Positions 20,056 to 59,500 of a stretch of 64,000 bases of DNA are shown in pieces (positions within the stretch are counted from its first letter, which is position 1; each line of letters starts with the position of its first letter). Under the pieces are notes generated by a model. The model made no database searches, had not been told where the DNA came from, and saw nothing but the letters and a program-made list of their open reading frames with translations. Origin of the DNA: Flavobacteriaceae bacterium EG-1 (lineage in GTDB: Bacteria > Bacteroidota > Bacteroidia > Flavobacteriales > Flavobacteriaceae). The stretch covers positions 1,368,760-1,432,759 of the forward strand of contig NZ_WJPK01000001.1 in assembly GCF_009649685.1 (NCBI RefSeq). Reading direction: 5' to 3'. The position numbers and the translations under genes are program-made.

Positions 20056-20072
20056 TTTCTTTTAATCTGAAT

Positions 20073-28272: not shown

Positions 28273-28294
28273 TTTTTCTATTAACACATTTTTT

Positions 28295-31835: not shown

Positions 31836-31863
31836 GCGGTAAGATTATCTAAAATCTTACCGC
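31836..31863 (-). terminator. Intrinsic terminator after the second susD
   Basis: A perfect 11-bp inverted repeat (arms 31836-31846 and 31853-31863, GCGGTAAGATT paired with AATCTTACCGC) with a 6-base loop. On the minus strand the stem is followed by TTTCTTTTTT. It begins 27 bases after the susD stop. This is a textbook Rho-independent terminator closing the second susCD pair. Confidence 0.85.
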
Positions 31864-31890
31864 CTTGCAAAACTAACTCAACTATTATTT

Positions 31891-33426: not shown

Positions 33427-33452
33427 TTTTTAAGTAACGTTAATTCCTGATA

Positions 33453-37005: not shown

Positions 37006-38388
37006 TTAATACAACGGAACTGCTTCTGTCTCCCAATTTTGTAGATCAGTTTTTAGTGTTGCCGCATGATGAAACTCAACATCAATCAAATTACTTTTTT
37101 CTGAAATATCTTTTGCAACATTAAACAATTGAAATTTACCACTATGGTATTTGACCAATTTCCAATCTCCACTTACAATAGAAGCATATTGATCTTCATA
37201 ACTACGAAAAAAATACAGATTACGTGGAGCCATTTCTTCTCCTTTTAATAATGGCATTATACTTTTACCATTGATTTGGTTATCGTTACATTCCTTGCCA
37301 GAAGCAATTTCAACTAACGTTGGGTAAAGATCTACTGATTGTACCGGAGTATTGCTGGTAGTACCCGATTTAGTAACACCAGGGTAATTAACAATAAACG
37401 GAACACGGGCACCTCCTTCTCCGAGCGTATTTCCAATTTTGCCACCACTCAATGGCGCATTTGTAAATTTTCCGCCTTGGTCAGATAACAAAATGACCAC
37501 AGTATTTTCTGAAATTCCTTTTTGAACCAAGGCCTTACGAACACGACCAACGGACTCATCCATGACACTTACCATGGCTGCATATTCGGCATAATCATCA
37601 TCTAAGCCTTCTGCCTTATATTTTTCAAGCCAATCTTTTCTACCAACAAAAGGGCCATGTACACTGTAGTACCACATGCTTAGCATAAATGGTTGCTTTT
37701 TATCATATTCTGAAATGAATTTCTCAGCACCCTCGGTTAAAACGTCAGTTAAATATTCGTCTTTATAATCATTTGCAAAACCCATAGGATCTTGTTCTTT
37801 TTTGAAAAATGGAGGGTAATAACTTCTAGGATGACCAGCATTTGTTGTGCCAAATTGTGCATCGAAACCTTGATGGATTGGATGGTATTTTTCCTCCCCT
37901 AAATGCCATTTCCCGATAAACATATTATAGTACCCGAAATCTTTTAACCGTTCTGCATAGGTTACTTCTTCTAAAGGCAGCCAGTTTCTTGACGGCCTTT
38001 GAACTGGGTCTTTTGGCCAAAGATTAAACTCTTTGTTTCCACCAGCTTGATTAACTTTTTCTTTATTATCAATAATATGACGCGTCATTTGAAAGCGAAC
38101 TGGTTCTTTACCCGTTAAAAGTGAAGCTCGACTTGGACTACAAGTAGGAGTTGCGATATAAGCACGCTCAAAGTTGAGACCGTCTTTTTTTAATTGGTCG
38201 ATATTGGGCGTGTGAAAAATAGTATTTCGAAACCCTACATCGGCCCAACCCCAATCATCAACAAATAGTAAAACGATATTTGGTTTTTTCGAGGTCACAG
38301 TCGCTTGTACTACTTCTGCCTTCTCTTTATTTTCGCCACAGGAAAATAAAAGCAAAAAAAACAATACTCCAAATACAACAATTCTCAT
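37006..38388 (-). CDS. S1 family sulfatase lipoprotein (FGly motif CSPSR)
   Basis: A 460-residue lipoprotein (lipobox FSC) of the S1 formylglycine sulfatase family. The metal site begins at FVDDWGWADVG; C83 in CSPSRASLLTG is the residue matured to formylglycine. GKWHLG and the later metal motif LSDQGG (Asp-Gln where most siblings here have Asp-Asn) are visible, as are GGARVPFIVNYPG and the C-terminal LFNVAKDISEKSN. It hydrolyses a sulfate ester on a glycan in the periplasm or at the surface; the position attacked cannot be told from sequence alone. It is the last gene of the sulfatase/GH110 run, 9 bp after the next sulfatase. Confidence 0.9.
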   Translation of the reverse strand: MRIVVFGVLFFLLLFSCGENKEKAEVVQATVTSKKPNIVLLFVDDWGWADVGFRNTIFHTPNIDQLKKDGLNFERAYIATPTCSPSRASLLTGKEPVRFQMTRHIIDNKEKVNQAGGNKEFNLWPKDPVQRPSRNWLPLEEVTYAERLKDFGYYNMFIGKWHLGEEKYHPIHQGFDAQFGTTNAGHPRSYYPPFFKKEQDPMGFANDYKDEYLTDVLTEGAEKFISEYDKKQPFMLSMWYYSVHGPFVGRKDWLEKYKAEGLDDDYAEYAAMVSVMDESVGRVRKALVQKGISENTVVILLSDQGGKFTNAPLSGGKIGNTLGEGGARVPFIVNYPGVTKSGTTSNTPVQSVDLYPTLVEIASGKECNDNQINGKSIMPLLKGEEMAPRNLYFFRSYEDQYASIVSGDWKLVKYHSGKFQLFNVAKDISEKSNLIDVEFHHAATLKTDLQNWETEAVPLY

Positions 38389-38397
38389 TTCAATAAT

Positions 38398-39870
38398 TTA
38401 TTGGGTTAATGGAAATAGTTCAGAATCTACGTGAGCCTCTTGCATCACTTTTAATAATTCAGCTATGACTTCAGGATGGTCTTTTGCTATATTATACTTC
38501 TCACTTACATCCGTAGTTAAATCATATAATTCAATGTTGGTTGGGTCTTTTTGAATATCATATAAGACAGCCTTCCAGTTTCCTTTACGTACAGCTTGCC
38601 TTCCTCCTTTTAGGTGAAACTCCCAATACAAGTACTCATGTTCAACTTGATTTTTTTCATTCAATAATGTTGGCAAAAAAGAAACACCATCGGTTTTTGT
38701 AGGCACTTCCAATTCGACAATATCAGCTAGGGTTGGCATCATGTCCCAAAAAGTAGATATATGGTCTGAAACTGTATTTTCTTTAATTTTATTGGGCCAT
38801 ACGGCGATAAACGGAGCTCGAATTCCACCTTCGTATAAATCGCGTTTCACCCCTCTTAAACCTCCTGTACTGTTAAAGAATTCTGGGTCGGCACCGCCCT
38901 CAACAGCAGGGCCATTATCACTTGTAAATACTATTAAGGTATTATCAGAAAGACCTAATTTCTCAACATGGGCTACAATTTGCCCAACATAAGCGTCTAC
39001 TCGAGTGACCATGGTTGCGTAAACCGCATGAGGTTCTTGTGTCGATGCATACTTATATGGAATCATCTCAGGTCCGTAATCAGATAAATAATTATGCGGT
39101 AATTTAAACGGCTTATTTTCTTCGAATTTGCCTTTATATAATTCGTAAATAGAATCTTTTGGAGAAATTAGTTCTGCATGTGGAAGTACCAATGGTACAA
39201 AAGCAAAAAATGGCTCATCCTTATTATTAGATATAAAGTTTAAAGTAGCTTCTTGAATTTTATCAGGAGCATAGGTAACGGTATTTGTCCAATCATTACC
39301 TTCGAGTAAAACTGAATCTTGATTATGCCATAAATAAGGAGGATAATATCGATGTGCCATACGCTGGCAATTATACCCATAGAACTCATCAAAACCCTGA
39401 TTGTTTGGATCGCCCTCACTACCGATAAAACCCAAACCCCATTTACCAAAAGCACCAGTATTGTAGCCTGCATCTTTTAACAGTTCTGCAATTGTAACTG
39501 AACTTCCTGGTAACGGATTTTGCCCCTCTAAAGGTAATTCTCGATTACCTCGTATGGGTGTATGCCCCGTATGCAAACCTGTCATTAAAGCAGAACGAGA
39601 TGGTGCACAAACTGTAGACCCCGCATAATGCTGGGTAAAACGGATTCCGCGTGTGGCTAATTTATCTATATTCGGAGTTTTTATTTTTTCCTGTCCATAA
39701 ACGCCTAAATCGCCATAACCCATATCATCTGCTAAAATGTAGATGATATTTGGTTTTTGCGAAGTTTCTTTGGTTTCAGCAATTGTTGATTTGTTGACAT
39801 CTACTTTGCAGGAGAATAGAAAAATCCCGAGAAAACAAATTTGAAAACTTTTTACAAAACATCTTTTCAT
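38398..39870 (-). CDS. S1 family sulfatase lipoprotein (FGly motif CAPSR, GKWGLG variant)
   Basis: A 490-residue lipoprotein (lipobox FSC). Metal-binding ADDMGYGDLG, FGly C88 in CAPSRSALMTG and TSDNGP are intact. The usual GKWHLG is replaced by GKWGLG, followed by GSEGDPNNQGFDEFYGY and CQRMAHRYYPPYLW. As I recall, this set is typical of the S1_16 subfamily, whose studied gut members remove 4-O-sulfate from galactose or N-acetylgalactosamine. That makes galactose-4-sulfate a plausible target, which would suit a carrageenan or sulfated agar. The subfamily call is from memory and unconfirmed. It lies 11 bp after a GH110-like gene. Confidence 0.9.
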   Translation of the reverse strand: MKRCFVKSFQICFLGIFLFSCKVDVNKSTIAETKETSQKPNIIYILADDMGYGDLGVYGQEKIKTPNIDKLATRGIRFTQHYAGSTVCAPSRSALMTGLHTGHTPIRGNRELPLEGQNPLPGSSVTIAELLKDAGYNTGAFGKWGLGFIGSEGDPNNQGFDEFYGYNCQRMAHRYYPPYLWHNQDSVLLEGNDWTNTVTYAPDKIQEATLNFISNNKDEPFFAFVPLVLPHAELISPKDSIYELYKGKFEENKPFKLPHNYLSDYGPEMIPYKYASTQEPHAVYATMVTRVDAYVGQIVAHVEKLGLSDNTLIVFTSDNGPAVEGGADPEFFNSTGGLRGVKRDLYEGGIRAPFIAVWPNKIKENTVSDHISTFWDMMPTLADIVELEVPTKTDGVSFLPTLLNEKNQVEHEYLYWEFHLKGGRQAVRKGNWKAVLYDIQKDPTNIELYDLTTDVSEKYNIAKDHPEVIAELLKVMQEAHVDSELFPLTQ

Positions 39871-39881
39871 AATTGCTCTAA

Positions 39882-41765
39882 TTATCTAAATTTCAATTTA
39901 AGCGTGTTCTTATCCGTTTCTAAAATATTCTTTGCCTTACCTTTATAATTGTTCTTTTGAAACTTAATATTTTTAGAAGTCTTAACTTTAATAACAGGGT
40001 TATCAGGATATAACATCGGGAAACTTCCTGAATTTGTAATGCTATTTCCTTTAAACAATAGGCCATCTGTATTGGCGATTTCCAATATCAAATTATCAAA
40101 TTGATTAAAGGTATTGTCTACGATTTCAATATTCGTAAAAGCAATATTCTCATTATCATCATCGGTTACAAATCGAATAACTCCCCTACTGAAACCACTG
40201 TGTTGCCCATCTTGAAAAATATTGTTTTTGATAAGCACGTTAGCCGCATTTCCGGCCTCGAACCAATGCCCACTTTCTACAGGAATTAAAATCGACTCCA
40301 TTTCTGTACTGAAAGTACTGTTCTGAACGACCGTTTTCTTTGGATTGGAAATCAATAATCCCCTAGCTCGGTTGTTACCAATGTTACAATTCTCTACAAG
40401 TAGTTCGGGATAGGCATCTAAATTCTCTATCAAATCACCAACCGCAAGTGTTGATGGTAGTTTTTCGTTAACGGTAATAATTTGATAACGCCCGTTTATT
40501 TTTTGAACATTTTTAATGGTCAACTTGTCATAAGGAAAAAAGGAATCGTTTAATCGTAAAATTCCTAGGGTATCTTTTACTTTTCCAATAGTGAAACCTT
40601 GTTGTTGCGAATGTCCCATTCGAACACCAATTTTGTTTTCGCCTTGAATATCCATGATTTCTTGATATACCCCATGAAGGTTTAAACCATCGTCTAACAT
40701 ATTATTTAGAGTGCAATTGCGCAGCGTAACTTTACCACGACATCCTATAAAATGCGTAGCATCTGCCGTCGTTGAAACCATTCGGCCATTGGAGGCGGAC
40801 ACATTAAAATTCTCTAGAAGCAAATCGGCTGAATTTTCAACGATTATTCCCATTCCGCCTGCATGATGTACTTGCAAATTTTGCGCGGTAAAACCATCTA
40901 CATCTTTAATTCGAAACGCGGGTGCTAAACGATTTAAACTTTGGTGTCCTTTACTGGACAATATCATACCTACCGGTGGTAACTTTTTAGTGTGTCCGTG
41001 AATACGAACCAATCCGGGCTCTATCTGCTCTGCCCATGCTTTATTTTCAAAACCCCAAGACTTATGAAGCTTTGATCGCGGATCGGTTTTGTATTTGTAA
41101 TCAATTTTGTCCACATTATTTTGCAATGCCGTTTTTGAAAGTGTAGTTATATTGGTATAGGCTTCTGTGTTGAACATTATGGCTTTGCGTTCTGGGTCAA
41201 ACAAAATAGTTTGCCCAACTGTATGTTCGTAATAGGGCTTTATAAATATGAGTTGTCCATTTCTGATTTCATAAGGATATTCATCTGTAAATTTCCAATC
41301 AAAAGTGCCATTTTCTTTATCATTGGCAACAATAACACCTTCACTATGAAATGGGATCTCCCAATCAATTGAAACATTAGTAACAGTTATGTTATCAGAA
41401 TTTTCAATTAAAAAAGGAATCATCCTTCCATGAAAAATAAATGTAGAACCTTGTCCATCAACAATTAAATTTTTGAAGCCAAGTATCGGAAACGCAGTAT
41501 AAATAATAACATCATCATGGTTTGAGATGTTGCTGTATACTTCATATGCCTTATCAGGATAAAAATGATAGGTGCCTTTTTCAAAAGTTATTTTTGATAT
41601 TGGTTTCTCTTGTACATCCAGAACTCTTGCTAAAACAGCAGGTGAAGCATCTTCAGAAATTTCAGTGGTAAAATAAACCAGCTCATTATCTTTAGAATCT
41701 TGAGCTACACCTATGAAGACATGCGTTAGAAACAATACAATTAAGACATTTTTTATAAACAGCAT
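39882..41765 (-). CDS. GH110-like alpha-1,3-galactosidase (copy A)
   Basis: A 627-residue exported protein (signal peptide to GVAQ) with a right-handed parallel beta-helix. Family GH110 features are visible: FPILGFKNLIVDGQGSTF, FHGRMIPF and VSIDWEIPF near the start, then TTADATHF (D335) and LDDGLNLHG (D358, D359). The 23/24-residue spacing between these Asp residues equals that of the three catalytic Asp residues I recall for a marine GH110. GH110 enzymes are inverting exo-alpha-1,3-galactosidases, and marine members act on non-sulfated ends of carrageenan-type chains. Here it would act after neighbouring sulfatases. It lies 6 bp after its paralogue. Confidence 0.83.
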   Translation of the reverse strand: MLFIKNVLIVLFLTHVFIGVAQDSKDNELVYFTTEISEDASPAVLARVLDVQEKPISKITFEKGTYHFYPDKAYEVYSNISNHDDVIIYTAFPILGFKNLIVDGQGSTFIFHGRMIPFLIENSDNITVTNVSIDWEIPFHSEGVIVANDKENGTFDWKFTDEYPYEIRNGQLIFIKPYYEHTVGQTILFDPERKAIMFNTEAYTNITTLSKTALQNNVDKIDYKYKTDPRSKLHKSWGFENKAWAEQIEPGLVRIHGHTKKLPPVGMILSSKGHQSLNRLAPAFRIKDVDGFTAQNLQVHHAGGMGIIVENSADLLLENFNVSASNGRMVSTTADATHFIGCRGKVTLRNCTLNNMLDDGLNLHGVYQEIMDIQGENKIGVRMGHSQQQGFTIGKVKDTLGILRLNDSFFPYDKLTIKNVQKINGRYQIITVNEKLPSTLAVGDLIENLDAYPELLVENCNIGNNRARGLLISNPKKTVVQNSTFSTEMESILIPVESGHWFEAGNAANVLIKNNIFQDGQHSGFSRGVIRFVTDDDNENIAFTNIEIVDNTFNQFDNLILEIANTDGLLFKGNSITNSGSFPMLYPDNPVIKVKTSKNIKFQKNNYKGKAKNILETDKNTLKLKFR

Positions 41766-41771
41766 ATAAAA

Positions 41772-43592
41772 TTACTTTTTAGTTGGTTTTTGAAAACCTT
41801 TATTCTTTTTCATTTTTAAGGTTGCTCGACTTGCTTCATCAGCTTCTAATGATTTTACCTGCATACCTTCATAGCTGTTTTTCTCAATAACAACATTTCG
41901 ACAATTGATGAGTTCAAACTGTGCTCGATCTGGGTACAATGCTTTTGCATCAGTTGTTCTTTTAATTGTGTTTTTTCTTATCGTGAGTCCGTCTACGCGA
42001 TCTGCCCAAATTAAAGCAGCATCAAAATTTTCAATCGAATTAAATTCAAAAACAATATTGCTATCGTACAAGATTGTATTATCAAAGCTTTTTGCCAATC
42101 GAGGAGTAACTGTCAAGACCGCATGTGGGCTCCCGCTATATGCACAATACTTAAAGTTATTATTGCGGATAACTACATCGTTTACTGCACCAGATTCATA
42201 CCAGAAAAATGTCTCTCCACGAAGTAATATTGATGACATCATTGAAGAAAAATCATTATTCTCAATAATGATTTTTTCTGGTGTTTTAACTATTACGTTT
42301 CTAGCACGATGGTCTTTAATTGTGCAACCTCGCATTGTAAAAACTGGGTTCCATGTTTTGTTTTCAACTATATCTCCTTTTTTTAAATCGTTCGGAATCG
42401 TATTTTTGAATGTCAACAATGAAAATTTTTCGTTGATATACTTTACTTTAGCTACGGTATTTACCGCTCCCCTGGTTGGGTCAGGATTTTGAATAAACCA
42501 TACTTGATCACCTTCTTCTGCGAACTTAAAACCTGTTTGTTCAAAATGCATAAGTGCAACACGAATAGTATTTTCATCTAGAACCTTATCAACCTCAACA
42601 TAAGTTCCATGTACATTTGTGCCATCATCAAGCATATGCATAAACTGGCAATTTTCAATTAAGATATCACCTTTACAATTTGCAAAATGAGTAGCATCGG
42701 CAATGGTAGAAACTACTCTATCGGAACCTTCTCGCACATAAATTCCGCTTTTTGCTATCACAATGTTTTCAGAGCGCTCAAAAAGAAAACCCATACCAAG
42801 CGCATGATGAATAGTAATACCCTTAAAATAAATGTTTTGAGATTCTTTTATCTGAAAAGCTGGTGCATAACGATTGTGAGCCTTATCGCCTTTTGAATGT
42901 AAAATACTTCCGACTGGTGGATAGTGTTTCAACGATTCATGAAATCGAAGATTACCATTATCCAATTCTTCAACATATCTAGGATTACTACTCATATCCC
43001 AAGCGCCATGGGCTACACGTTTATTTTCTTTATCAAATGCCAATGTACTTCCCAAATAATCAAATGAAAATCCATCTATATTCGGAAAAAAAACTCGACC
43101 GTTTTTCAATTCCCAAGAAAATCCATTCGAATAAGGTTTAATGTCTCGCCAACCTTCTTTTTCATTAACTTTAATTACTTCACCTTGAAATGAAAAAGGA
43201 ATGTCCCAATCTATTGTCAGATTATTTACCTTGATTGAGGCACAATTCTCAAATTGAAAAGGGGCAATTTGCCCGTGAAATATAAACTCAGCGCCGTTAC
43301 CTTCAATTTCAATAGAATCAAAATCGGTCATTCTAAAAATAACTCTTTTTAACCCGTTACCATGATTCGTAACTGCACTATAATGTTCTAATGCATAGTC
43401 TGGAAAAAACGAATAAGTTCCTTTTTCAAAAACAATTATGACCTGTTTAGAGGTTAGCTCTTCTATTGCTTTACGGACAATAGGGGTCATGTCTCCTTCT
43501 TGATGTGCAATTTTAATCACCTCTTGTCCTTTAGCAGAAAGCGAAACGAAAATTAAAATCAATAAAAACAGTGGCTGATGTATAAATTTCAT
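41772..43592 (-). CDS. GH110-like alpha-1,3-galactosidase (copy B)
   Basis: A 606-residue exported protein (signal peptide to AKGQE), paralogous to copy A along its whole length. Beta-helix motifs include IEGNGAEFIFHG, LTIDWDIPF, IADATHF (D299) and LDDGTNVHGTY (D322, D323), keeping the same Asp spacing. Copy B has closer to the usual GH110 wording (DDGTNVHGT) than copy A (DDGLNLHG). Two different GH110 genes in tandem among sulfatases suggest separate substrates, for example different sulfation or linkage contexts. This is inference. It is 9 bp downstream of a sulfatase gene. Confidence 0.83.
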   Translation of the reverse strand: MKFIHQPLFLLILIFVSLSAKGQEVIKIAHQEGDMTPIVRKAIEELTSKQVIIVFEKGTYSFFPDYALEHYSAVTNHGNGLKRVIFRMTDFDSIEIEGNGAEFIFHGQIAPFQFENCASIKVNNLTIDWDIPFSFQGEVIKVNEKEGWRDIKPYSNGFSWELKNGRVFFPNIDGFSFDYLGSTLAFDKENKRVAHGAWDMSSNPRYVEELDNGNLRFHESLKHYPPVGSILHSKGDKAHNRYAPAFQIKESQNIYFKGITIHHALGMGFLFERSENIVIAKSGIYVREGSDRVVSTIADATHFANCKGDILIENCQFMHMLDDGTNVHGTYVEVDKVLDENTIRVALMHFEQTGFKFAEEGDQVWFIQNPDPTRGAVNTVAKVKYINEKFSLLTFKNTIPNDLKKGDIVENKTWNPVFTMRGCTIKDHRARNVIVKTPEKIIIENNDFSSMMSSILLRGETFFWYESGAVNDVVIRNNNFKYCAYSGSPHAVLTVTPRLAKSFDNTILYDSNIVFEFNSIENFDAALIWADRVDGLTIRKNTIKRTTDAKALYPDRAQFELINCRNVVIEKNSYEGMQVKSLEADEASRATLKMKKNKGFQKPTKK

Positions 43593-43601
43593 AAGGTATT
43601 A

Positions 43602-45095
43602 TTATAAGTTAAGACCTGATCCTTGTAAAGCTGGGTCATAATTCCATGAATTATACCATGGGTCTTTGGTTTCTAATTGAAAGGCTTTCATTTTTACTAT
43701 GAGTTTTTCTAACACTTGATCATACTGCTTGCTATAGGCTAAATTATTCAATTCATTTGGGTCTTTAGATAAATCAAATAGTTCAAATTCTGGTCGATGT
43801 AAATAATCTTTGGTTTTTTTATTGCCAAAAAATTCTTTCTTACTTCGATGTACTTCTTGCCAAGTAGACGCTGCCCAAAGGTCAGATGCGAAAGGGTATT
43901 CAAGGCCCCATGCTATGTTTCTAATTAATTTATAATCACCCTCTCTAACCACACGCATCGGATAATACATTGTGATTTCATGGAAGGTATGTGATGCATA
44001 AATTTCGTTCCAATCTTCTTTTGTATAATTGGAATCGTTTAAAACTGGTTTAAAAGATTTTCCATGGGTTTTCAGTGAATTTAAATCCACTTTTGCCATA
44101 TCTAGAATTGTAGGGGTTAAATCGGCCCAAGTAATCATGGCATCGATAGTAGTACCCTTAGCTTCTATAGATGGGTCTTTAACAATACATGGCAATTTCA
44201 TACCCGGCTCATATAAAGTTGTTTTTGCCCCTGGGAATGCCATTCCGTTATCGGAAATATAAATCACAACCGTATTGTTAGCTTTGTCAGATTCTTTTAG
44301 TATTTGCATCAGTTTACCAAAACCTTGGTCGATTCGAGAAATACTCTGATAATATTGAGCAATTTCTTCTCGAGTTTCTTTAGAATCTGGAAGAAAATCT
44401 GGCACTAAAACATCTTTAGGGTCGTAAACAACTTTTTCGATTCCGGGATATCCCTCTGGTTTATTTCCAAAACTATTTGGTGCGCGCCAATTTCCAGGAT
44501 CAGTAGATTTTGCTCTATGTGGATCATCAGTGCAGAAATATAAAAAGAATGGTTTTTCATTCTCAATTACTTGTTTGCAAGCTTCAGCCATTTCATAGGT
44601 ACTACGTGCATTTGCTTTCAAAACCTTAGTAAATTTATATACATCTTCTGGGGCTAAATGATACTTTCCAATTCTAGCCGTAAGATATCCTTCTTGTTCG
44701 AGTCGTACCGGCAACGAAGTAATTGTATCATAGGTACTAAAATGATGGTAATCATGTACATGACCATACGAACCTGTAGCGTGACCATATTTACCAGTAA
44801 GAATTACAGATCGACTTGCAGCGCAACTTGCACTGGTACAATATGCATTGGTGAATTTAGCGCCTTCGCTAGCCAATTTATCTAAATTCGGAGTTTTAAT
44901 TACTGGGTTTCCATATGCACCAATAGCATCTAAGCCGTGATCATCGGCAACGAAGAGGATAATATTCGGACGTGAATCATCCTTGACTGCCATAGTTGTA
45001 GTTTCTGATTTTGTCTTTTCAGAACAAGCAGTACTAATTGAAGCTAAGGCAACGATAAAAAATAGTAAGCGATATTTTTTTAAATTGTTATTCAT
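43602..45095 (-). CDS. S1 family sulfatase lipoprotein (FGly motif CAASR)
   Basis: A 497-residue lipoprotein (lipobox STAC). Visible are FVADDHGLDAIGAYG, the FGly cysteine C91 in the rarer form CAASRSVILTG, the GKYHLAPE segment replacing GKWHLG, and YISDNGMAFPGAKTTLYEPG. The C-terminus carries FELFDLSKDPNELNNLA. The altered motifs (CAASR, GKYHLA, TTLYEPG) mark a subfamily different from the other sulfatases here, so it probably attacks a different sulfate position or sugar. It needs a maturation enzyme that is not encoded in the window. It is 35 bp downstream of another sulfatase. Confidence 0.9.
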   Translation of the reverse strand: MNNNLKKYRLLFFIVALASISTACSEKTKSETTTMAVKDDSRPNIILFVADDHGLDAIGAYGNPVIKTPNLDKLASEGAKFTNAYCTSASCAASRSVILTGKYGHATGSYGHVHDYHHFSTYDTITSLPVRLEQEGYLTARIGKYHLAPEDVYKFTKVLKANARSTYEMAEACKQVIENEKPFFLYFCTDDPHRAKSTDPGNWRAPNSFGNKPEGYPGIEKVVYDPKDVLVPDFLPDSKETREEIAQYYQSISRIDQGFGKLMQILKESDKANNTVVIYISDNGMAFPGAKTTLYEPGMKLPCIVKDPSIEAKGTTIDAMITWADLTPTILDMAKVDLNSLKTHGKSFKPVLNDSNYTKEDWNEIYASHTFHEITMYYPMRVVREGDYKLIRNIAWGLEYPFASDLWAASTWQEVHRSKKEFFGNKKTKDYLHRPEFELFDLSKDPNELNNLAYSKQYDQVLEKLIVKMKAFQLETKDPWYNSWNYDPALQGSGLNL

Positions 45096-45130
45096 ATAGT
45101 TTAGTTAATGAAAGCTAACAAGCTCATTTT

Positions 45131-46873
45131 TTAATCTTTAAAGGTTTTATCGGTAATGTGAGAAAAAGGTTTTTGCAATTCTTCCCATTTGCTTCTATTC
45201 CAAGTTGTGGGTGGTTTAAAATCGGTGGTCTCTTTAAAATAAACCGCTTGCATTTCTTCAACCAAATCAGGCATTAATGCTACCAAATCATTACGCTCTT
45301 TGGGGTCATTTTTTAAATCGTATAATTCAATCACTGGTTCTCTTCCATCCATAAAATCTTTATAAATACCATTTTCAAGTGTGCCCGTAAAACGAAGGAG
45401 GTAATTGTCTTTGATAATCGCCCAAGCTGGTGGAGCAAACTGCGCTTCATCACTGTGATCTTTGGTAGATTTATTAATAGTAAAACCCCATCGCGTTGAT
45501 TGAATGCCTGCCCAATATAATTGATTGTGAATCTCAGGAGAATTGGCATCCTGCAAAATAGGGAGAAGACTTTTTCCGTCAATATCATTTGGCACTTCTC
45601 CTCCCCCAGCATCAATTGCTGTTGGAATGATATCTAAAGCAGAAACCAAATGTTTTGATTGCGAAGGGTTTTTAATTCCGTTAGGCCAATGTACAAATAG
45701 TGGCACTCGAATTCCTCCCTGGTAATAGTTTCCTTTGTGTCCTGAATACGGAGCATTTCCTGGTAATGGAGAACCAGTTTTATGACCATCATAAGAACCT
45801 CCTGCCATGGCTCCATTATCAGAGGAGAATATGATGATGGTATTTTCATATTCCTTTTTTGATTTCAGAAAATCTATCATCTTTTTAATATTCTGGTCAA
45901 CACCATATAGATGCGCATAGAAGTTGTTCAAATCATAAGAATCGGACTTTAGGTGGTCAAAATATTTCGCCGGAGCTTTTGGTTCTAATGAATCATGAAC
46001 CGCATGATAGTGCAGTTGTACATAAAATGATTCATCTTCATCAATTTGTTTTTCAATAAAACTTAAGGCCTTGTTGGTAAAAGTGTCGGTGTTATATTCT
46101 TTTTGAAGACCAGCGTGTTCTTTATTTTCCCAAACATTGGTTGCATTATAAAATTGACTCGCCCAGTAATTATACCCATAAAAATAGTCGAAGCCATGTA
46201 TTAAAGGATGGTGTTGCTCAGCTGTCGAACCCATGTACCCACCTTTAATTAATTCATCATAAATATTTGGATTCTTCTTTCTTATCTGATGTAGTTTCAA
46301 GGTATCACTTAATCCATTCTCTTTTAATGCGCTTTGTACCATAGAATTATCAAAATGCCCGATATGCCATTTGCCAATATGCGCAGTTTGATACCCTAAA
46401 TCTTTCATTTTTTGGGCCAAATGATTGCCTCGGTCAATTCCACGTCTTTCTGCATCAACATTAGTATACGCTCCAAACCTATTTTGCATTACCCCTGTCG
46501 CAATACCCATTCTTGAAGGCGCACATAAACTACTCGATGTAAAAGCATTCGTAAAATACACTCCGTCTCGAGCTAGTTTGTTAACCGTAGGCATTGCCGT
46601 TTTAGAAAGATCTAATGCTTCGTCAAGTGAATATCCTTGAAGGCTATCAACCAGCTGAACAAAGTAGGGGTCAAAATCTGCTGTTTTCAAAGTGTCATTG
46701 TGCACACCAAACTGCCCATACCCTAAATCATCCATTAGAACAAATATAACGTTGGGTTTTTGTTTTACTACATTTTCAGCTTTTTCAGTTTTACATCCTA
46801 CGAAACAGAATACGAATAGCAATAGTATTGCTACAAGATATTGAGACGATGTAAATGTTTTAAAAGCTTTCAT
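45131..46873 (-). CDS. S1 family sulfatase lipoprotein with insertion (FGly motif CAPSR)
   Basis: A 580-residue lipoprotein (lipobox VGC), the longest of the group. It has VLMDDLGYGQFGVHND, an insertion of about 35 residues (YFVQLVDSLQGYSLDEAL) before the usual helix, FGly C117 in CAPSRMGIATG, GKWHIGH and SSDNGAMAGGSYDGHKTG. Another insertion around 165-210 carries IYDELIKGGYMG. The DNGAMAGG/GGIRVPLFVHWP segments complete the metal site and substrate lid. The large insertions probably shape an oligosaccharide cleft. The target sulfate is unknown. It starts 11 bp after the stop of the following sulfatase. Confidence 0.9.
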   Translation of the reverse strand: MKAFKTFTSSQYLVAILLLFVFCFVGCKTEKAENVVKQKPNVIFVLMDDLGYGQFGVHNDTLKTADFDPYFVQLVDSLQGYSLDEALDLSKTAMPTVNKLARDGVYFTNAFTSSSLCAPSRMGIATGVMQNRFGAYTNVDAERRGIDRGNHLAQKMKDLGYQTAHIGKWHIGHFDNSMVQSALKENGLSDTLKLHQIRKKNPNIYDELIKGGYMGSTAEQHHPLIHGFDYFYGYNYWASQFYNATNVWENKEHAGLQKEYNTDTFTNKALSFIEKQIDEDESFYVQLHYHAVHDSLEPKAPAKYFDHLKSDSYDLNNFYAHLYGVDQNIKKMIDFLKSKKEYENTIIIFSSDNGAMAGGSYDGHKTGSPLPGNAPYSGHKGNYYQGGIRVPLFVHWPNGIKNPSQSKHLVSALDIIPTAIDAGGGEVPNDIDGKSLLPILQDANSPEIHNQLYWAGIQSTRWGFTINKSTKDHSDEAQFAPPAWAIIKDNYLLRFTGTLENGIYKDFMDGREPVIELYDLKNDPKERNDLVALMPDLVEEMQAVYFKETTDFKPPTTWNRSKWEELQKPFSHITDKTFKD

Positions 46874-46884
46874 TCTACTAATTT

Positions 46885-48429
46885 CTACTCTTTAAATTGA
46901 TCATATTCCGGATTCACATCTGCTTCAGCAAATCTTGGTCGATCTTTCCAAAGGTCATACGTCGCCTTCAATTGTTCGGCTGTTTCTACATACTGACCTT
47001 TATCATCTGTAGCCTTAATCCAATCTTCTAAAACAGTCCTATGCTTATTAAGAACTGAAGCGTATTCTAATTTTTCTGCCAAATTGTCAATTTGATGCGG
47101 GTCAGTTTCAATATTATAAAGCTCTTCTTCTGGCCGTACGCCAAACCAATGCTCTGCTTGATACTTGGTTAATTTACCTTCTTTAAAAAGTCGTTTCATA
47201 TCTTTTACAATAGGTTGGTTATCGCGATAGCCAGCTTGTAGCATCGGCCTCTCAGGAAAATAATTACGGATATACCTAAATTTACCTGTACGAACCGTAC
47301 GAATTCTATCAATGGTATAATCACAGCGATCTCTTGCTCCAATGACGTAATCAGTTGATTTAAAGTCTTTGTCGAAAAGATTTTTACCGTTGAAATAATC
47401 GGGCAACTCAACGCCGCCGAAAGCTAAGGTGGTTGCCGATACATCTAGTAATGAGACTAGTTCCGTACGAATAGTACCCGCTTTCAATATAAAATTATTT
47501 CCTTTAACAATTAACGGTACATGCATACCACCTTCATAACAAAATTGTTTATGCCGTAAAGAAGTATTACTACCATGATCTGAGAAGAAAAATATAATGG
47601 TGTTTTCTAATTCACCGTCAGCTTCAAGCTGCTTTAGAATATTTTCTACTCTGGTATCTGCACCCCGGTTTGCATTGTATTGTTGTGTCCAAGCTTTTTG
47701 TTGTGATACTACCTCAGGAAAATAAGGTGGTAATGGAACAGCATTATCATCTAACTTCTCGCCCGCTCGAACATGTTTAGAACCAGCTTTGCCGCCCATA
47801 ATCTGAACTTGTCCGAACCAAGGCTGGTCTTTGTTCTTCCGGGCACTCCAAACACCTTCAGTTAAAGACATGAATTTTTCTGCCCGATTACCTTGCCAAC
47901 CGTTCATACCAGGTTTGTATTCATCAGCACTACCTACATTATATAATGCATTACGGTCATAGTGAAAATTATAGTCGTCTTTACCATTGTTAAAAGTAAA
48001 GTAACCCGCATCGCACATTAATTCAGGAATGGTTTTTATCCCTTTCGGTAAATGAATTCGCAATTCTTCAGAAACCACTTGGCCATCTGTTGTGCGACTA
48101 GAGCGATGGTTATGCGTACCCGTTGTTGTTTGCATCACACCAGTAATTAGAGCGGAGCGACTAGCTGAACAAACTGGTGCAGTTGCATATGCCTTTTTAA
48201 ACATAACACCCTCAGCTGCTAACTGATCTATGATTGGAGTATGATCTTTATTAATAGCGTCACCATAACAGCCCATAAAAGGTGATAAATCTTCGGCAAT
48301 TATCCAGAGAATGTTGGGTTTGCGAATTTGCGCTTCAACCTGGCATATAAAGACAGAGAAACATGTAATAATAGCAATGATGAAGCGCCGAAAAGTCTTA
48401 TTTAATTTCAAAGTATAATTTACGTGCAT
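46885..48429 (-). CDS. S1 family sulfatase, secreted (FGly motif CSASR)
   Basis: A 514-residue protein with a signal peptide ending near VEAQI and no lipobox, unlike most siblings. WIIAEDLSPFMGCYGD replaces the usual DD metal motif with ED; FGly is C87 in CSASRSALITG; the second metal motif is FSDHGSN. This ED/CSASR/DHG set recurs in a sulfatase group often annotated as heparan N-sulfatase-like, but in a galactan locus a sulfated galactose is more likely. The C-terminus (GKLTKYQAEHWFG, EEELYNIETDP) resembles that of the truncated sulfatase at the right edge. A TAnnTTTG-like box (TAAATTTG, 48438-48445, minus) lies very close to the ATG. Confidence 0.9.
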   Translation of the reverse strand: MHVNYTLKLNKTFRRFIIAIITCFSVFICQVEAQIRKPNILWIIAEDLSPFMGCYGDAINKDHTPIIDQLAAEGVMFKKAYATAPVCSASRSALITGVMQTTTGTHNHRSSRTTDGQVVSEELRIHLPKGIKTIPELMCDAGYFTFNNGKDDYNFHYDRNALYNVGSADEYKPGMNGWQGNRAEKFMSLTEGVWSARKNKDQPWFGQVQIMGGKAGSKHVRAGEKLDDNAVPLPPYFPEVVSQQKAWTQQYNANRGADTRVENILKQLEADGELENTIIFFFSDHGSNTSLRHKQFCYEGGMHVPLIVKGNNFILKAGTIRTELVSLLDVSATTLAFGGVELPDYFNGKNLFDKDFKSTDYVIGARDRCDYTIDRIRTVRTGKFRYIRNYFPERPMLQAGYRDNQPIVKDMKRLFKEGKLTKYQAEHWFGVRPEEELYNIETDPHQIDNLAEKLEYASVLNKHRTVLEDWIKATDDKGQYVETAEQLKATYDLWKDRPRFAEADVNPEYDQFKE

Positions 48430-48571: not shown

Positions 48572-50629
48572 TTAATCTATTAACTTATTTTTAAAAAACT
48601 TCGCTACCTTTTCGTGCTCCGAAGCGCCTATAAAAAAGGAGTGAACCCCATTTTTTACCACTATATATTCTGAGTCTACACCTACTTTTTGCAGGGCCGA
48701 ATGAAATAATTCACTCTGATCAATGGGTACCAAGGGGTCTTTTTCACCATGCATAATCAAAAATGGTGGGTCGTCTTTTGTAACATAGATTATCGGGCTT
48801 GCCATTTTAGCTTCATTTTGTTTTTCCTCAAAAGACCCTCCTAAGAATTTTACAATGGGCTTTGTATTTTGTTTTGCCCCTTTTGATTTATCGGTTGAGG
48901 AAGCATTCATTTGATTCAAATCTGATGGCCCAAACCAATCGCATATGGCCTGAACTTCGCTAGAAACATCTGTTACACCTAGATTACCTTCTAAATCTTG
49001 TATTCCATTCGTAGTTCCAACTAAAGAAACTAAATGCCCCCCAGCAGAAGAACCCCAGAGTCCAAATTTATTTGCATTTAATCCATATTGTCCGGCATAC
49101 TTTCTCAAATAGCGAATGGCTGCTTTGGTGTCATAAACTTGCTCAGGAAAATGTGCTTCCCTTGTTAAACGATAGTTTATAGAAGCCATTGCGAAACCAT
49201 GCTTTAACAAAGAGGTCTGCTTTCCGAAAAGGTCTTTTGTGCCTTTCTGCCAACCACCACCATGAATCCATATTACAAGAGGATATGGCTTCTTGAATTT
49301 CGTCGTGTCTGGCAAATAAAGGTCTAAAGTATGTCTATTGTTACCATCAAGTATATAGGGTATATTGCGATATATTCTGGTATTTTCTGGAATTAAAGTA
49401 CGATCCTCTTTCATCCTTTTTTTAAAGGCTATATAACTACGATATTCTTTCTCGGATAATTGCCAATCAACATCGCTGTCTGAATGGTCGAAAACATCTT
49501 GGTCTAATAATGGAATTTCCGTTGGCGTTAATCTACCATCTCCATTGACATCGAACATTGAAAATTCCGATTCATCCTTTTCGGTTTTTTTGTAGTCAGG
49601 ATTAATACGAGGTCTTAGCTGAATATTTCGATATTTCACAGCTGTATGATCTCCCTGAAAATAGATTGGACCTGGTTTAGAGTCGTCCGCATTAAGCGAA
49701 CCTTTAGTTGCTCCAACAACAGGTTCGTTGTCAATCACTTTTTTGCCATTGAGTATTACGGTTACATGCTGGTCCACTAAAGTGATGTCATATGTTTGCC
49801 ACTCCCCGCCTACTTTACCCGCATTTTCACTTGGTTTTATTCGAGCGAATAAAGCACCAACACCTTGTAATCCTTGCATTCTACTATCTCTATCTACCAC
49901 TTGGGTTTCATATCGCCCACATAGGTATATTCCACTATTTCCTTTTAATGGAACATTAAATTCAAGTTTCAGATTGAAGTCTTTGAACTCTCCATCGGTA
50001 CGTAGATTACCATACTTTGAAAAGGGATCGAAATTAAGTTTTGGAGTTTCATTTATTAGTACTCCATTTTCCGCTCTCCAACCATTAATTTGATTGGGGT
50101 TCGTTAACCGCCAACCTGATAAATCTTTACCATTAAAAAGTGAAATAGGTTCGCCGAACTTTATTTTATCTAAATTAGGCTTCGAAGGTAATGGAGCTAA
50201 TCGCTTTCCTATAAAATTCAGTTTTTTGAATGTACCATCGGGTAAAGGCCAATCCATAGTAAGGAATATCTTATCCGTTTCCACAGTTGCCTTCGTCTGT
50301 ACAAGAACTTTTTCACCTGTTGGAGGGCCACCTGAAAACTTAGGCTCACCCACTTTATAGTTCCTTTTAAAATATAATGTATCGCTTTCTACTTTAATTT
50401 CAGAAATAGCATTTCCTAAACCAACCGACCAAGCTTCGCCATCAAGTGAATTATTTTTTTCATAGATAGAAAGCCAAAGCGGATGCCCATCCGGTAAAAC
50501 TATAGCCCAATTGCCGATAAACGATTCGTGGGGACTTGATGTGCTAACCTGAGCATTAACACAAAAAGCAAGAACCAACATAAAAAAAATGCTAATGCTA
50601 CTTTTTCTATTTATACAATATTTATTCAT
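48572..50629 (-). CDS. Fusion of DUF1080 (3-keto-disaccharide hydrolase) domain, EF-hands and alpha/beta-hydrolase esterase
   Basis: A 685-residue exported protein with three parts. After the signal peptide (to VNAQV) and a small beta domain (about 35-145) comes a DUF1080 domain at 160-340 (PISLFNGKDLSGWR, GNSGIYLCGRYE, PGPIYFQGDH), a jelly-roll fold known from 3-keto-glycoside-acting enzymes. A paired EF-hand follows at 356-396 (DVNGDGRLTPTE, DSDVDWQLSEKE). The C-terminal 415-685 is an esterase-type alpha/beta hydrolase: HGGGW (456-460), nucleophile S528 in GSSAG, D631 and H663 complete a triad. It could deacylate and open an oxidised sugar. The frame runs unbroken, so the fusion is real. 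It lies 33 bp after a TIM-barrel gene. Confidence 0.85.
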   Translation of the reverse strand: MNKYCINRKSSISIFFMLVLAFCVNAQVSTSSPHESFIGNWAIVLPDGHPLWLSIYEKNNSLDGEAWSVGLGNAISEIKVESDTLYFKRNYKVGEPKFSGGPPTGEKVLVQTKATVETDKIFLTMDWPLPDGTFKKLNFIGKRLAPLPSKPNLDKIKFGEPISLFNGKDLSGWRLTNPNQINGWRAENGVLINETPKLNFDPFSKYGNLRTDGEFKDFNLKLEFNVPLKGNSGIYLCGRYETQVVDRDSRMQGLQGVGALFARIKPSENAGKVGGEWQTYDITLVDQHVTVILNGKKVIDNEPVVGATKGSLNADDSKPGPIYFQGDHTAVKYRNIQLRPRINPDYKKTEKDESEFSMFDVNGDGRLTPTEIPLLDQDVFDHSDSDVDWQLSEKEYRSYIAFKKRMKEDRTLIPENTRIYRNIPYILDGNNRHTLDLYLPDTTKFKKPYPLVIWIHGGGWQKGTKDLFGKQTSLLKHGFAMASINYRLTREAHFPEQVYDTKAAIRYLRKYAGQYGLNANKFGLWGSSAGGHLVSLVGTTNGIQDLEGNLGVTDVSSEVQAICDWFGPSDLNQMNASSTDKSKGAKQNTKPIVKFLGGSFEEKQNEAKMASPIIYVTKDDPPFLIMHGEKDPLVPIDQSELFHSALQKVGVDSEYIVVKNGVHSFFIGASEHEKVAKFFKNKLID

Positions 50630-50662: not shown

Positions 50663-51595
50663 TTAAACTTGTGACCCAGCCTTAATAAGTAAATCTCGAG
50701 TTAATTTAATTCCTTGTGCTTCAGAAGCCTTAGCGGTTCCAAACTCAATACCAATAAAACCTGTATATCCGGAGTCTTTAACCATTTTCATCATTTTAAA
50801 ATAATCTATAGTTGTCTCGTTACCCATTCCATCGAACTCTATAGACTTTGCACTTACTCCTTTTGCAAAAGGCAATATTTCAGCAAATCCTTTGTACTTA
50901 TTATACTCATTAATACATTCGCGATCTTTATTTTTTTCAATACAAAAGTTTCCAAAATCGGGCAGTGTACCACAGTTTTCTCTTTCTACATTACGCATAA
51001 TATTGGATAACCATAGCCCATCGGAAGAAAAACCGCCATGGTTTTCGACTAGAATATTAATATTGGCATCTTTAGAATAATCAGAAAGTTGTTGTAAAGA
51101 ATCTAACGCTGCCTTTGTCGCTTCATCCTTTTCTACTCCACCACCCAAGTTTACACGAATAGCATGGCAGTCTAAAAAATGTGCTGCATCTATCCATTTG
51201 TAATGATTTTCGATAGCCTTAAAGCGTTTTTTTGAATCAACATCTGCTAATTGTCCTTCTTTATCAATCATAATTAGAACATTCTCTACCCCTTCTGAAT
51301 TGGCTCTATTGTTCATCTCAGACAAGTACTTTTTGTCTTTTGCCTTATCCATAAAAAATTGATTGACATATTCCAATCCCTCACAATTAAAACTTTTTGC
51401 TTTGGCTGCAAAGTCAAGATTGTCCATCTTACCAGCTCGTAATGCGTTATGAAATGACCATTGTGCTAAAGAAATTTTGAAAAATAATTCATTTTTCAAG
51501 AGGTTGAAATCACCCATTCCGAAAGCAGGAATACCGGTCATTGCAACCAAACTTGAGGCTTGTAGTGTTCTTGATATAAATTTTCTTCGTTGCAT
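50663..51595 (-). CDS. Tat-exported sugar isomerase/epimerase-like TIM-barrel protein
   Basis: A 310-residue protein starting with a twin-arginine-type signal (RRKFI) and a hydrophobic stretch, so it is probably exported folded. The body is an AP-endonuclease-2-type TIM barrel seen in sugar-phosphate isomerases: ISLAQWSFH, CHAIRVNLGGG, ILVENHGG, LPDFGNF and GFIGIEFG carry the usual metal-ligand Glu, Asp and His positions. Members of this fold near DUF1080 genes take part in 3-keto-glycoside breakdown, so that is one possible role; it is inference. It starts 10 bp after the stop of the Hyi-like gene. Confidence 0.78.
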   Translation of the reverse strand: MQRRKFISRTLQASSLVAMTGIPAFGMGDFNLLKNELFFKISLAQWSFHNALRAGKMDNLDFAAKAKSFNCEGLEYVNQFFMDKAKDKKYLSEMNNRANSEGVENVLIMIDKEGQLADVDSKKRFKAIENHYKWIDAAHFLDCHAIRVNLGGGVEKDEATKAALDSLQQLSDYSKDANINILVENHGGFSSDGLWLSNIMRNVERENCGTLPDFGNFCIEKNKDRECINEYNKYKGFAEILPFAKGVSAKSIEFDGMGNETTIDYFKMMKMVKDSGYTGFIGIEFGTAKASEAQGIKLTRDLLIKAGSQV

Positions 51596-51605: not shown

Positions 51606-52523
51606 TTATTTGAAATTATCTATTTCTTTATAAGCATCAATAACCACCTGTTCACCTACTTTACCTGGTTTTGAATTTTTATGTTCCATTCCCAAAATGC
51701 CATTATATTCTTTGGAATGAATAAACTTCAACACATTTTTATAATTAATTTCTCCTGATGTTGGCTCCTTTCTTCCAGGGTTATCACCGATTTGGATGTA
51801 TGCAATTTCGTCCCAACAGGCCTCCATATTTGGAATTAGATTTCCTTCTTGAATCTGCTGATGATAGATATCGAACAAAATTTTACAAGATGGAGAATCA
51901 ACCGCCTTGCAAATTTCATAGGCCTGAGGTGATTCGGTCAAAAAGCAACCAGGGTGGTTAAAGAAATTAAGCGGCTCTAAAACCATAGTTAAATTATGCG
52001 GTTCGAAAATCGCAGAAGCTTGCTTCAAGGTCTCCACAACATTCGCTGTCTGATAACCCATATTAATTTTCGGGGCAATTTTACCGGGCACTACAGTCAT
52101 CCATTTGGCATTGACTCGTTTTGCAACTTCAACAGATTGTTTGCAAAAACTAAGAAATTCTTCGCGCTTATTAATATCGCCCGAAGCTACGTCGCCCTCT
52201 TTTAAAAATACAGCAACAAAAACACCCATTTCCAGTCCGCGCTTTTGCATAATTTTTGCCATCTTTTCTTGCAAGACTACTTCTCGTTTGCGCATGGTAT
52301 TATCTTCAAAAGCTGTAAAACCTTGGTCGGCCATAAAATTTAATTGGTCGATTGGGTCATTGCCGGCAGATTGTTCAAACATACCAATATGCGGTGCATA
52401 TTTTAGGTTAAAATTGTGCTTTGAGCTGCTACTCTCACTATTATTAAATGACATAAGACTACCGGCTAATGGCAACGTGCCACTTGCTAAAGCTGACTTT
52501 TTTATAAAATTTCTTCTTTCCAT
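51606..52523 (-). CDS. Tat-exported hydroxypyruvate isomerase-like TIM-barrel protein
   Basis: A 305-residue protein with a twin-arginine-type start (RRNFIKKSALASG). The barrel has the Hyi-family pattern: LEPLNFF with metal-binding Glu, FDIYHQQIQEGNL, IQIGDNPGRKEPTSGEINY and GMEH near the end. Cytoplasmic homologues isomerise hydroxypyruvate and similar keto sugars; an exported one is more likely to act on a sugar or keto-sugar in the periplasm. It shares fold but little close sequence with the next gene. Both are between the fusion esterase and the DUF5107-TPR gene and form one transcription unit. Confidence 0.8.
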   Translation of the reverse strand: MERRNFIKKSALASGTLPLAGSLMSFNNSESSSSKHNFNLKYAPHIGMFEQSAGNDPIDQLNFMADQGFTAFEDNTMRKREVVLQEKMAKIMQKRGLEMGVFVAVFLKEGDVASGDINKREEFLSFCKQSVEVAKRVNAKWMTVVPGKIAPKINMGYQTANVVETLKQASAIFEPHNLTMVLEPLNFFNHPGCFLTESPQAYEICKAVDSPSCKILFDIYHQQIQEGNLIPNMEACWDEIAYIQIGDNPGRKEPTSGEINYKNVLKFIHSKEYNGILGMEHKNSKPGKVGEQVVIDAYKEIDNFK

Positions 52524-56567: not shown

Positions 56568-59500
56568 CTAATTCGACAACTCTGATTTTACAAATTTACC
56601 TGGAGAGACTTTATATTTTTCCTTAAAAAGTTTGCTAAAATGCGTTCTACTTTTAAAACCTGTAAGAACATAAACTTCACTTACCGATAACTTTTTATCC
56701 TGCGCTAATAACTCGGCAGCTTTTCTTAAACGATACATTTTCAATAATTCAAAAGGTGTTTTATTCGTTAAACTTTTAACCTTTTGATAAAAATGCGTAC
56801 GGTTCATAAAGAGCTTCCGTGCAAATTCATCCATATCTAAATTTTCATTCGATAAATTATCCGCAATCAAATCGTATAGCTTCTCTAAAAAGGCATCATC
56901 ATTTCTATTATTAATATTATTGTCTTTAATCATCGGCAAACCAATTTCAAAACGCTCGCGTAACCTTTTCTTATTTTCTAGAAGTGCAACTATTCTTGTA
57001 ACCAATTGCCTAGTATCAAATGGCTTTTTAATGTAAGCGTCTGCACCATCTTTTATACCCTGAATACGATTTTCTATGTCTGCTAAAGCTGTAAGTAATA
57101 TGATAGGAATATGACTCGTTTTCATGTCTGATTTAATTCGTTTACACAAATCCATACCATTCATTACAGGCATTTGAATGTCACTGATTATTATTTCCGG
57201 CCATTGCTCATCCATTGCTACTAAACAATCAGCCCCATTATTAAAAACTTCAACTTTAAAATTTTTAGAGAGCATATTTGAGACATAAATTTGCATATCA
57301 ACATTATCCTCTACATAATAAATAAGATGTTCAGCGTAGTCATTTGAAACCTCTATTGGAATGGTTTCTAATTCATGAAGCCATTCATTTTTATTGACAA
57401 AATCATTTTCTGCAACAAGTATTTCTTTTCTTTTAATTTCTTGATCAAATGAAGATTCTTTTTTTACTATGGGCAAACGCACTTTCATGGCGGTACCTTC
57501 ACCTAATTTACTTTTAGCTTCAATATATCCGTAATGCATTTCTACCAAACGTTTGGAGAATGCTAAACCTATACCTGAACCCGAAGCATGTTCATTTTGA
57601 TTTTTTCTTGATCTAAAAAAGCGTTCGAATATATAAGGTAAATCTTCTTGGTCGATACCCCGTCCTGTATCGGTTACTGTTATGGAAAGATCTTTCTCAG
57701 TAGCATTAAACCTCACCTTTATTATATCGCCAGAGTCGGAGTATTTAAAGGCATTACTTAACAGGTTGTTGAATATTTTTTCTAGCTTATTTCGGTCGGC
57801 GGAAACAACTATATTCGAATCATCGGCGATAACCTCCAATACTCGATTACTATTTTTAGCCAAAAAATGAAAATCGATTAACATCTCTTTTAAGAAACTA
57901 TCGAAATAAAATCTAGAATATTCCATCTCCATCACGTTAGCTTCTACTTTTTCGAAGTCATTTACTTGGTCTATTAATTGACTAATTTTACGCGATTGAC
58001 GTTCTACAATGTTCAATTTCTCTTCAACATCTTTATTGCCTTTAAACGTTGTTAACAATAACCTTACAGGGCTAGTTATCAGATTCAAAGGCGTTTTTAA
58101 TTCGTGCGATATGTTTGCGAAAAATCGAAGTTTTGCGTCATTAATAGTTTTAATAGTATCACGCTCTATTTTTTCAATCTGAATTGAATAACGTAATTTT
58201 TGCATTTTCAAAATATAGTATAATATTGCTCCCAAAAATAACAGCGCACATAATATATAAAGTATATAAGCCATAGTTGTTTTCCATAATGGCGGTGCTA
58301 TAGTTATAAAAAGAGTTTTTGGAATTGTCCATTCACCAATGGCATTAGAAGCAGAAACTTCTAATTTATAATCATCGGGTTGTAAACCGCTATAAGTAAT
58401 TGTTTTCTGGTCAGAGTTAACCTTGTGCCACTCAATGTCAATGGGACTTAATTTATATTTTATTCTATGATTATCTGGGGCTTTAAAATGTAGTGAATGC
58501 ATTTCCAAGGCGAAGACATTTTCATTATATCTTAAATTAATCTTTGCGGAATCTACGAGACGTTCTGTTATTAAAACTCGATTATTAATATAGTCTAAGG
58601 GCTTTATCTTTTGATTTGAGATTCTGAAATCACTAAATTCTACTTTTGGAAGCTTTTCTTGAGAAATGATATCTGCCGGATGAAAATAACTGAACCCTTC
58701 TAGACCAGTAAATAATAATTTACCATTTTCAAAATTTGTAGCTGTGTACCAAAAATCCTCAAATGTAAGTCCATCTTCCTTTTTAAATCTTCTAAATGAT
58801 TTTTCGTCTGCTGTAAATTTATTTAAACCAATGTTTGTTCCCACCCAAAGATTTTCTTGCTCATCTAGAAGAATACTTTTAACTACATTATTTGATAGAC
58901 CTTGTTTTTCTGAATAAGAAATAAATTCAGGCTTTCTATCACTATGAATAACATTGCATATACCAGCACCTTCAGTGCCAATCCATAATTCACCTTTTGG
59001 TGTTCGCAATATTGAAGAAACAAAGTTGCTTGGTATACCATACTCAACACCATTGTTTCTGTATTTATCAATATTTAAAGATTTCAAAGGTTCATCTTTG
59101 CTAATATTGATTCTTATTAAACCATCATCAGCCGTACCAAGCCAAATAAAATCATATATAGGATCTGCATAAACGTACCTAACTAAGGATAACTTATTAG
59201 TGTTAAACAGTTCATTAGCATTCAAGTTCTCTAATTTTAATACTTTTCCATTTGCATCTATTTTTAATCGGAACACATCATTTTTACAAGAAACCCAAAT
59301 ATATCCGTACTTATCTTCAGCGAATTTATATGGGGTATCCGCAGCAAAATTCGGCAACAGTGAAGTATCTATTTTATGTGGTTTATTTTCGTTTAACTTC
59401 TTAAAAAAGTAACCGCCATTGGTTACCTTTATTAATGTATTTTTCTTACTATCAATAAATATTGCTGAAATCTTAGAAAGATAAGATTTAGGCATTAGAA

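Follow-up and report, generated by a model that had tools for sequence, protein, structure and literature searches.

Proteins with a DUF1080 domain have been linked with 3-ketotrehalose, and a role with 3'-ketolactose has been proposed for them (PMC9007349); TIM-barrel enzymes that take part in the cleavage of 3-keto-glycosides are also known (PMC10628242). According to an older remark, the annotation of DUF1080 overlaps with that of CBM66 on one and the same domain (PMC5673643), which points to an accessory or binding role of DUF1080. A β-sandwich module beside CE1 esterase domains has a precedent in a Bacteroidetes PUL, DmCE1B (PMC8040265). In λ-carrageenan breakdown, GH110A is an exo-6-sulfo-α-galactosidase (PMC12549532).

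The gene analysed here joins a DUF1080 domain to an esterase of the BD-FAE type. It lies in a stretch of 64,000 nucleotides from Flavobacteriaceae bacterium EG-1 (assembly GCF_009649685.1, contig NZ_WJPK01000001.1, positions 1,368,760–1,432,759 of the forward strand), hereafter referred to as the window. Its two halves correspond to proteins that are ordinarily encoded apart in Verrucomicrobia and Planctomycetes. The join in a single gene is real and rare; what is new is the arrangement, since the parts themselves are known and ordinary.

Domain organization of the fusion gene

The gene is one unbroken frame of 685 codons on the minus strand, encoding 685 residues (Table 1); read on the plus strand, these positions contain many stops. 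A preliminary description, made from the sequence alone, had already placed the domains in one uninterrupted frame, and the present analysis confirmed this. It had regarded the protein as three-part (DUF1080, EF-hand pair, and esterase); the protein has four parts, the N-terminal eight-stranded barrel having been overlooked.

A Pfam search assigned residues 161–339 to PF06439 with 137 bits (cut-off 26.8, E 9.9e-40), above the gathering score, in agreement with the DUF1080 domain proposed earlier, and residues 435–646 to BD-FAE (PF20434) with 235.4 bits (cut-off 26.8, E 6.6e-70). Residues about 37–145 gave no Pfam match. In the AlphaFold model (pLDDT 91), an eight-stranded barrel is followed by the DUF1080 sandwich, and the barrel region is conserved together with DUF1080 across the subfamily. 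The barrel alone was not identified by Foldseek, the best matches being DUF1080 structures. A barrel of this kind, lacking a Pfam match, is common to a large DUF1080 subfamily of Bacteroidota, PVC, and Acidobacteriota.

The two halves are linked by two loops of 12 residues each, DVNGDGRLTPTE (residues 360–371) and DSDVDWQLSEKE (residues 384–395), both of which are canonical by eye (D1, D or N3, D5, and E12) with a spacing of 24 residues. The Pfam EF-hand model scored 18 bits, below its cut-off of 25, and covered the first loop only (356–372). The loops align with the equally spaced EF pairs of verrucomicrobial EF-hand and esterase proteins, and a bridge residue is present in each loop of the AlphaFold model. 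The EF-hand pair of the preliminary description is retained on the canonical loops and the shared spacing, with the Pfam score under the cut-off.

On the question of how often the fusion recurs, no second four-domain fusion was found in about 1,500 sampled genomes (301 of the family, 396 of the phylum, 3 of the genus, 388 Verrucomicrobiota, 392 Planctomycetota, and 60 of the nearest verrucomicrobial family), where the large scans scored the best few candidates from each genome in non-exhaustive samples, so that absence is not proof. The full fusion was likewise found neither among the matches listed in a further scan of genome contigs nor on 72,556 plasmids. A single known instance of the full architecture does not allow selection for the fusion to be shown. 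An architecture seen in no second genome among those sampled might be suspected of being an artefact, in which an assembly error fused two adjacent genes. We consider this highly improbable, because the frame runs without a stop across a join that is in phase and at natural domain borders, the EF-hand linker is part of the esterase family, and the gene lies deep in a 1.87-Mb contig of an assembly that is 99.94% complete. Separate genes brought together by misassembly, which the preliminary description had named as a ground for refutation, are thus unlikely.

Table 1. Positions of the fusion gene, its domains and catalytic codons, and the neighbouring features, numbered from the first letter of the window.
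Feature	Position	Strand	Basis
Whole gene, four-domain fusion	48572..50629	-	frame and Pfam search
Sec-type signal peptide, about residues 1-26, MNKYCINRKSSISIFFMLVLAFCVNAQ	50552..50629	-	by eye
N-terminal eight-stranded barrel, about residues 37-145	50195..50521	-	AlphaFold model, conservation; no Pfam model
DUF1080 / PF06439 3keto-disac_hyd, residues 161-339	49613..50149	-	Pfam, structure comparison
EF-hand pair, residues 356-396, linker between halves	49442..49564	-	Pfam (weak), alignment, model
BD-FAE α/β-hydrolase esterase, residues 420-683	48581..49372	-	Pfam, alignment, model
Ser528 codon	49048-49046	-	triad
Asp631 codon	48739-48737	-	triad
His663 codon	48643-48641	-	triad
TIM barrel (AP_endonuc_2), Tat-type by eye, directly upstream, 33-bp gap	50663..51595	-	best solved relative 4ovx, E 4e-84
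Second TIM barrel, Tat-type by eye, hydroxypyruvate isomerase/epimerase-like	51606..52523	-	similarity
Sulfatases, downstream	37006-38388, 38398-39870, 43602-45095, 45131-46873, 46885-48429	-	similarity
Two GH110-type proteins, downstream	39882-41765, 41772-43592	-	similarity
Whole downstream block (five sulfatases, two GH110-type)	37006..48429	-	
Anhydrogalactose (AHG) module	14429..21296	-	
AHG cycloisomerase	14429-15517	-	626 bits to 5xd7
AHG dehydrogenase-like	15518-16972	-	735 bits to 6j75
SDR	17040-17810	-	
GH117	17843-19051	-	469 bits to 3p2n
ADH	19039-20055	-	
Second GH43/GH117-like	20073-21296	-	
Two SusC/SusD pairs	26599..36494	-	
Hybrid two-component regulator (propeller, kinase, receiver, AraC)	56568..60683	-	

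Catalytic residues of the esterase half

The triad S528, D631, and H663 had been given exactly in the preliminary description. The three residues (S188, D291, and H323 in the alignment) are invariant in the 24 relatives aligned, and the same holds for G526, S528, and G530 of the GxSxGG elbow. The closest solved structures are the carbohydrate esterases 6tkx and 6xyc and the bifunctional GH43-CE 6mly (2.0–2.3 Å). The BD-FAE relatives also include a rumen lipase, Lip_vut4, and broad esterases. Judged from the sequence, esterase activity of this half is well supported; that both halves still work as enzymes is unproven. In the L195 sequence (1492–3807), two lobes resembling sialate acetylesterases by eye precede a BD-FAE esterase in a single frame.

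The DUF1080 half and 3-keto-sugar chemistry

Foldseek matched the DUF1080 domain to AL2 hydratase (8v31), BT hydratase (8tda), and a 3-keto-glycoside eliminase/hydratase (8rr2/9fbe), with a probability of 1.00, E of about 1e-9 to 1e-10, and a TM score by target of about 0.6 for 8v31, 8rr2, and 8tda. The identity to the solved 3-keto enzymes is only about 20%. In a printed alignment with BT2157 and the DUF1080 proteins of the same genome, read by eye, the NSG, ExQ, GEW, and terminal Q...H motifs are kept in the window protein, and loss of catalysis is thus not established. The DNxHP and DKW segments, which occur in BT2157 and in some of the DUF1080 proteins of the genome, are gaps or other residues in the window protein and in L002, L145, and L048.

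A dehydrogenase acting at C3 is a prerequisite of a 3-keto pathway, and the lack of a GFO/IDH gene both inside the window and at less than 50 kb from the fusion counts against a 3-keto step; the nearest such genes are about 53 kb and 64 kb away. The genome has 42 GFO/IDH matches per 4.45 Mb, and 16 PF06439 matches beyond the two of the N-barrel subtype. A GFO/IDH gene lies within 5 kb of nine of these 16, compared with neither of the two N-barrel proteins. Among the DUF1080 relatives, a GFO gene is present within 5 kb in 10 of 84 loci, compared with eight or so expected from the density in the genome, although this survey may undercount owing to few reference proteins and some short loci. One further open reading frame of the genome (L170:207–1583, 458 aa) carries two tandem PF06439 domains and adjoins a GFO/IDH gene.

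These results bear on whether the protein is genuinely bifunctional. In that case, deacylation of an algal oligosaccharide by the esterase would be followed by elimination or hydration of a 3-keto-sugar by the DUF1080 domain, with the dehydrogenase encoded elsewhere and the upstream TIM-barrel proteins acting in the same periplasmic route. We regard this as possible but rather doubtful. The PF06439 score, the Foldseek matches, and the kept motifs have to be weighed against the missing BT2157-type segments, the low identity to the solved enzymes, and the absence of any characterised member of the subfamily from the literature that we found. A dehydrogenase for the oxidation could come from among the 42 GFO/IDH matches in the rest of the genome, and the Tat-type TIM barrels lie 33 bp upstream; yet the surrounding 50 kb holds no GFO gene, and the relatives are near one in just the 10 loci mentioned above, even if one member of the same subfamily (L051) is located near both a TIM barrel and a GFO gene. 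A more specific version appears unlikely, namely that a single periplasmic enzyme removes O-acyl groups from an oligosaccharide of red-algal sulfated galactan and couples this to its oxidative (3-keto) cleavage, the TIM-barrel proteins carrying out the steps that follow. If true, the 3-keto-glycoside route would reach as far as marine sulfated galactans, and this would be the first known fusion of this chemistry to an esterase.

Sugar binding or presentation by the N-barrel and DUF1080 domains is favoured over 3-keto cleavage. The fusion partners of this domain pair vary: it is fused to a seven-bladed β-propeller lactonase in Verrucomicrobiales (L048:862–2847) and to DUF7402 and a GH92-type domain in the Planctomycetota sample (L147:1–2493, an open frame of 1243 aa), which is the pattern of an accessory module. 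Residual 3-keto activity is possible, since the next two genes upstream encode isomerase-like TIM-barrel proteins of Tat type. The preliminary description had suggested that an acyl group is removed and a 3-keto-type modified sugar is cleaved in succession. The esterase chemistry (from the sequence), the secretion, the algal locus, and the fusion are supported; the succession with 3-keto cleavage is not supported as worded there, on the grounds of the GFO/IDH distance, the 84 loci, and the two absent BT2157 segments. The results also raise the question of the role of the abundant N-barrel and DUF1080 subfamily, whose members are mostly not beside 3-keto dehydrogenases despite the Pfam name, 3-keto-disaccharide hydrolase.

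Genomic context and the putative substrate

The window contains the components of a PUL: two SusCD pairs, two GH110 proteins, GH117, six sulfatases, and a hybrid two-component regulator. The sulfatase cluster noticed earlier is a sulfatase-rich algal polysaccharide locus. One of the GH110-type proteins matched GH110A (9beh) with 778 bits, and the cycloisomerase match is a 3,6-anhydro-α-L-galactonate cycloisomerase; 6j75 is an anhydrogalactose dehydrogenase. The AHG dehydrogenase, the AHG cycloisomerase, GH117, and GH110 together define the locus as one for red-algal galactans, with more than one candidate polymer. Two DUF5107 and TPR proteins of identical length (1103 aa) lie far apart in the window (3381–6692 and 52577–55888), and an FG-GAP and ASPIC/UnbV protein of 1117 aa (23092–26445) separates the SusCD pairs from the GH117 module.

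The fusion gene shares its strand with the sulfatase block. Scans for promoters and terminators gave no more matches than expected by chance, and no terminator-like site was found in the gaps. This arrangement is relevant to the possibility that the esterase cleaves a non-acetyl ester (feruloyl-like aryl, methyl, or lipid) unrelated to sulfated galactan and sits in the cluster solely through its transfer history. Position in a cluster does not by itself set the substrate, and the BD-FAE relatives named above, a rumen lipase and broad esterases among them, would be compatible with such an activity. The gap of just 33 bp to the upstream gene, the strand shared with the sulfatases, the terminator-free gaps, and the fusion to a sugar-type domain, however, make it improbable. 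The weakest link of a galactan-related substrate is that no acyl ester on red-algal galactans relevant to the locus was found documented; pyruvate acetals are not esters. Such acetals are carried by red-algal galactans (PMC6801904).

Origin of the two halves

The genome also encodes a standalone N-barrel and DUF1080 paralogue (L002; 42% identity to the window protein), and proteins of this type are scattered across the family. The first half of the fusion is nearer to planctomycete L145 (56%) and Verrucomicrobiales L048/L128 (55%) than to L002. In the tree, it falls inside a PVC clade (support 97/93) and groups with L145 and L048/L128 at 99/96, apart from L002, which groups with rows from the window's own family. 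The second half is sister to L134 (EF-hand, BD-FAE, and PF06439) at 100/95, in a tree that resolves no deeper forks and from which very long branches of the same genome were left out. L134 and L048 belong to the same Verrucomicrobiales genome. EF-pair and BD-FAE proteins of about 365–382 aa with the same loop spacing occur in at least 8 of the 60 genomes of the nearest verrucomicrobial family. The two halves were aligned and modelled separately; a joint MAFFT alignment was discarded, as it placed esterases onto the DUF1080 half.

Because the first half nests in the PVC clade, the second half is sister to L134, and EF-pair and BD-FAE proteins recur in that verrucomicrobial family, the gene looks like two complete PVC-type proteins placed end to end. 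It was probably assembled from PVC-type genes, with the direction and date of transfer a matter of inference; the GC content is about 35% throughout and gives no indication that a transfer was recent. In a Bacteroidota seaweed-sugar locus, a composite of two PVC-type proteins would represent gene assembly across phyla. In a Verrucomicrobiota genome (L169:6936–10371), a protein of the same DUF1080 subfamily precedes an alcohol dehydrogenase and an SDR that are 54% and 77% identical to the ADH and SDR of the anhydrogalactose module (19039–20055 and 17040–17810), a second sign of gene sharing between Verrucomicrobiota and Bacteroidota.

Discussion

We propose, with about even confidence, that the gene encodes a secreted, probably periplasmic carbohydrate esterase derived from a joined N-barrel and DUF1080 protein and an EF-hand-pair and BD-FAE esterase. 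The fusion protein would be exported to the periplasm via its predicted signal peptide, and the EF-hand and BD-FAE partner would have lost its own signal peptide. The EF pair would serve as a calcium-stiffened linker. Judging from the relatives 6tkx, 6xyc, and 6mly, the BD-FAE half would remove O-acyl groups, most likely acetyl, from algal oligosaccharides. With less certainty, the N-barrel and DUF1080 half might hold a galactan oligosaccharide and present the sugar to the esterase. Deacylation may then let the neighbouring sulfatases and the GH110 and GH117 exo-enzymes proceed.

Each part of the protein has a known counterpart. The gut Bacteroidetes enzymes 6tkx/6xyc and 6mly share the BD-FAE-type α/β-hydrolase (33–37% identity, 2.0–2.3 Å over 278–290 columns), and 6mly likewise joins the esterase to a second carbohydrate enzyme. 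The partner in 6mly is GH43, however, and unlike the window protein, none of the three has DUF1080 or an EF-hand. The verrucomicrobial EF-hand and BD-FAE proteins (L134, L158, L183, L185, L187–L189, L191, L193, and L194) have the EF pair with the 24-residue spacing directly before BD-FAE and conserve the triad, but each begins with a signal peptide of its own, and the N-barrel and DUF1080 half is missing. L134 does possess PF06439, although this domain is distant (31.5 bits) and C-terminal, that is, on the opposite side. The N-barrel and DUF1080 proteins (L002, L145, and L048/L128) share two domains with the window protein, residues about 1–345; they are mostly standalone, at about 340 aa, and none is joined to an esterase.

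The likeness to BT2157 (3osd, 8rr2, 9fbe, and 8tda) and AL2 (8v31) consists of the DUF1080 fold and the four kept motifs. The window protein differs from them in lacking DNxHP, DKW, and a partner dehydrogenase in the locus, at about 20% identity, and adds the N-barrel, the EF pair, and the esterase. At the level of the locus, the λ-carrageenan PUL of Pseudoalteromonas distincta U2A, for which the published text mentions no esterase, also has a GH110A-type exo-6-sulfo-α-galactosidase and several S1 sulfatases (PMC12549532). To this set, the window adds GH117 and the anhydrogalactose pathway.
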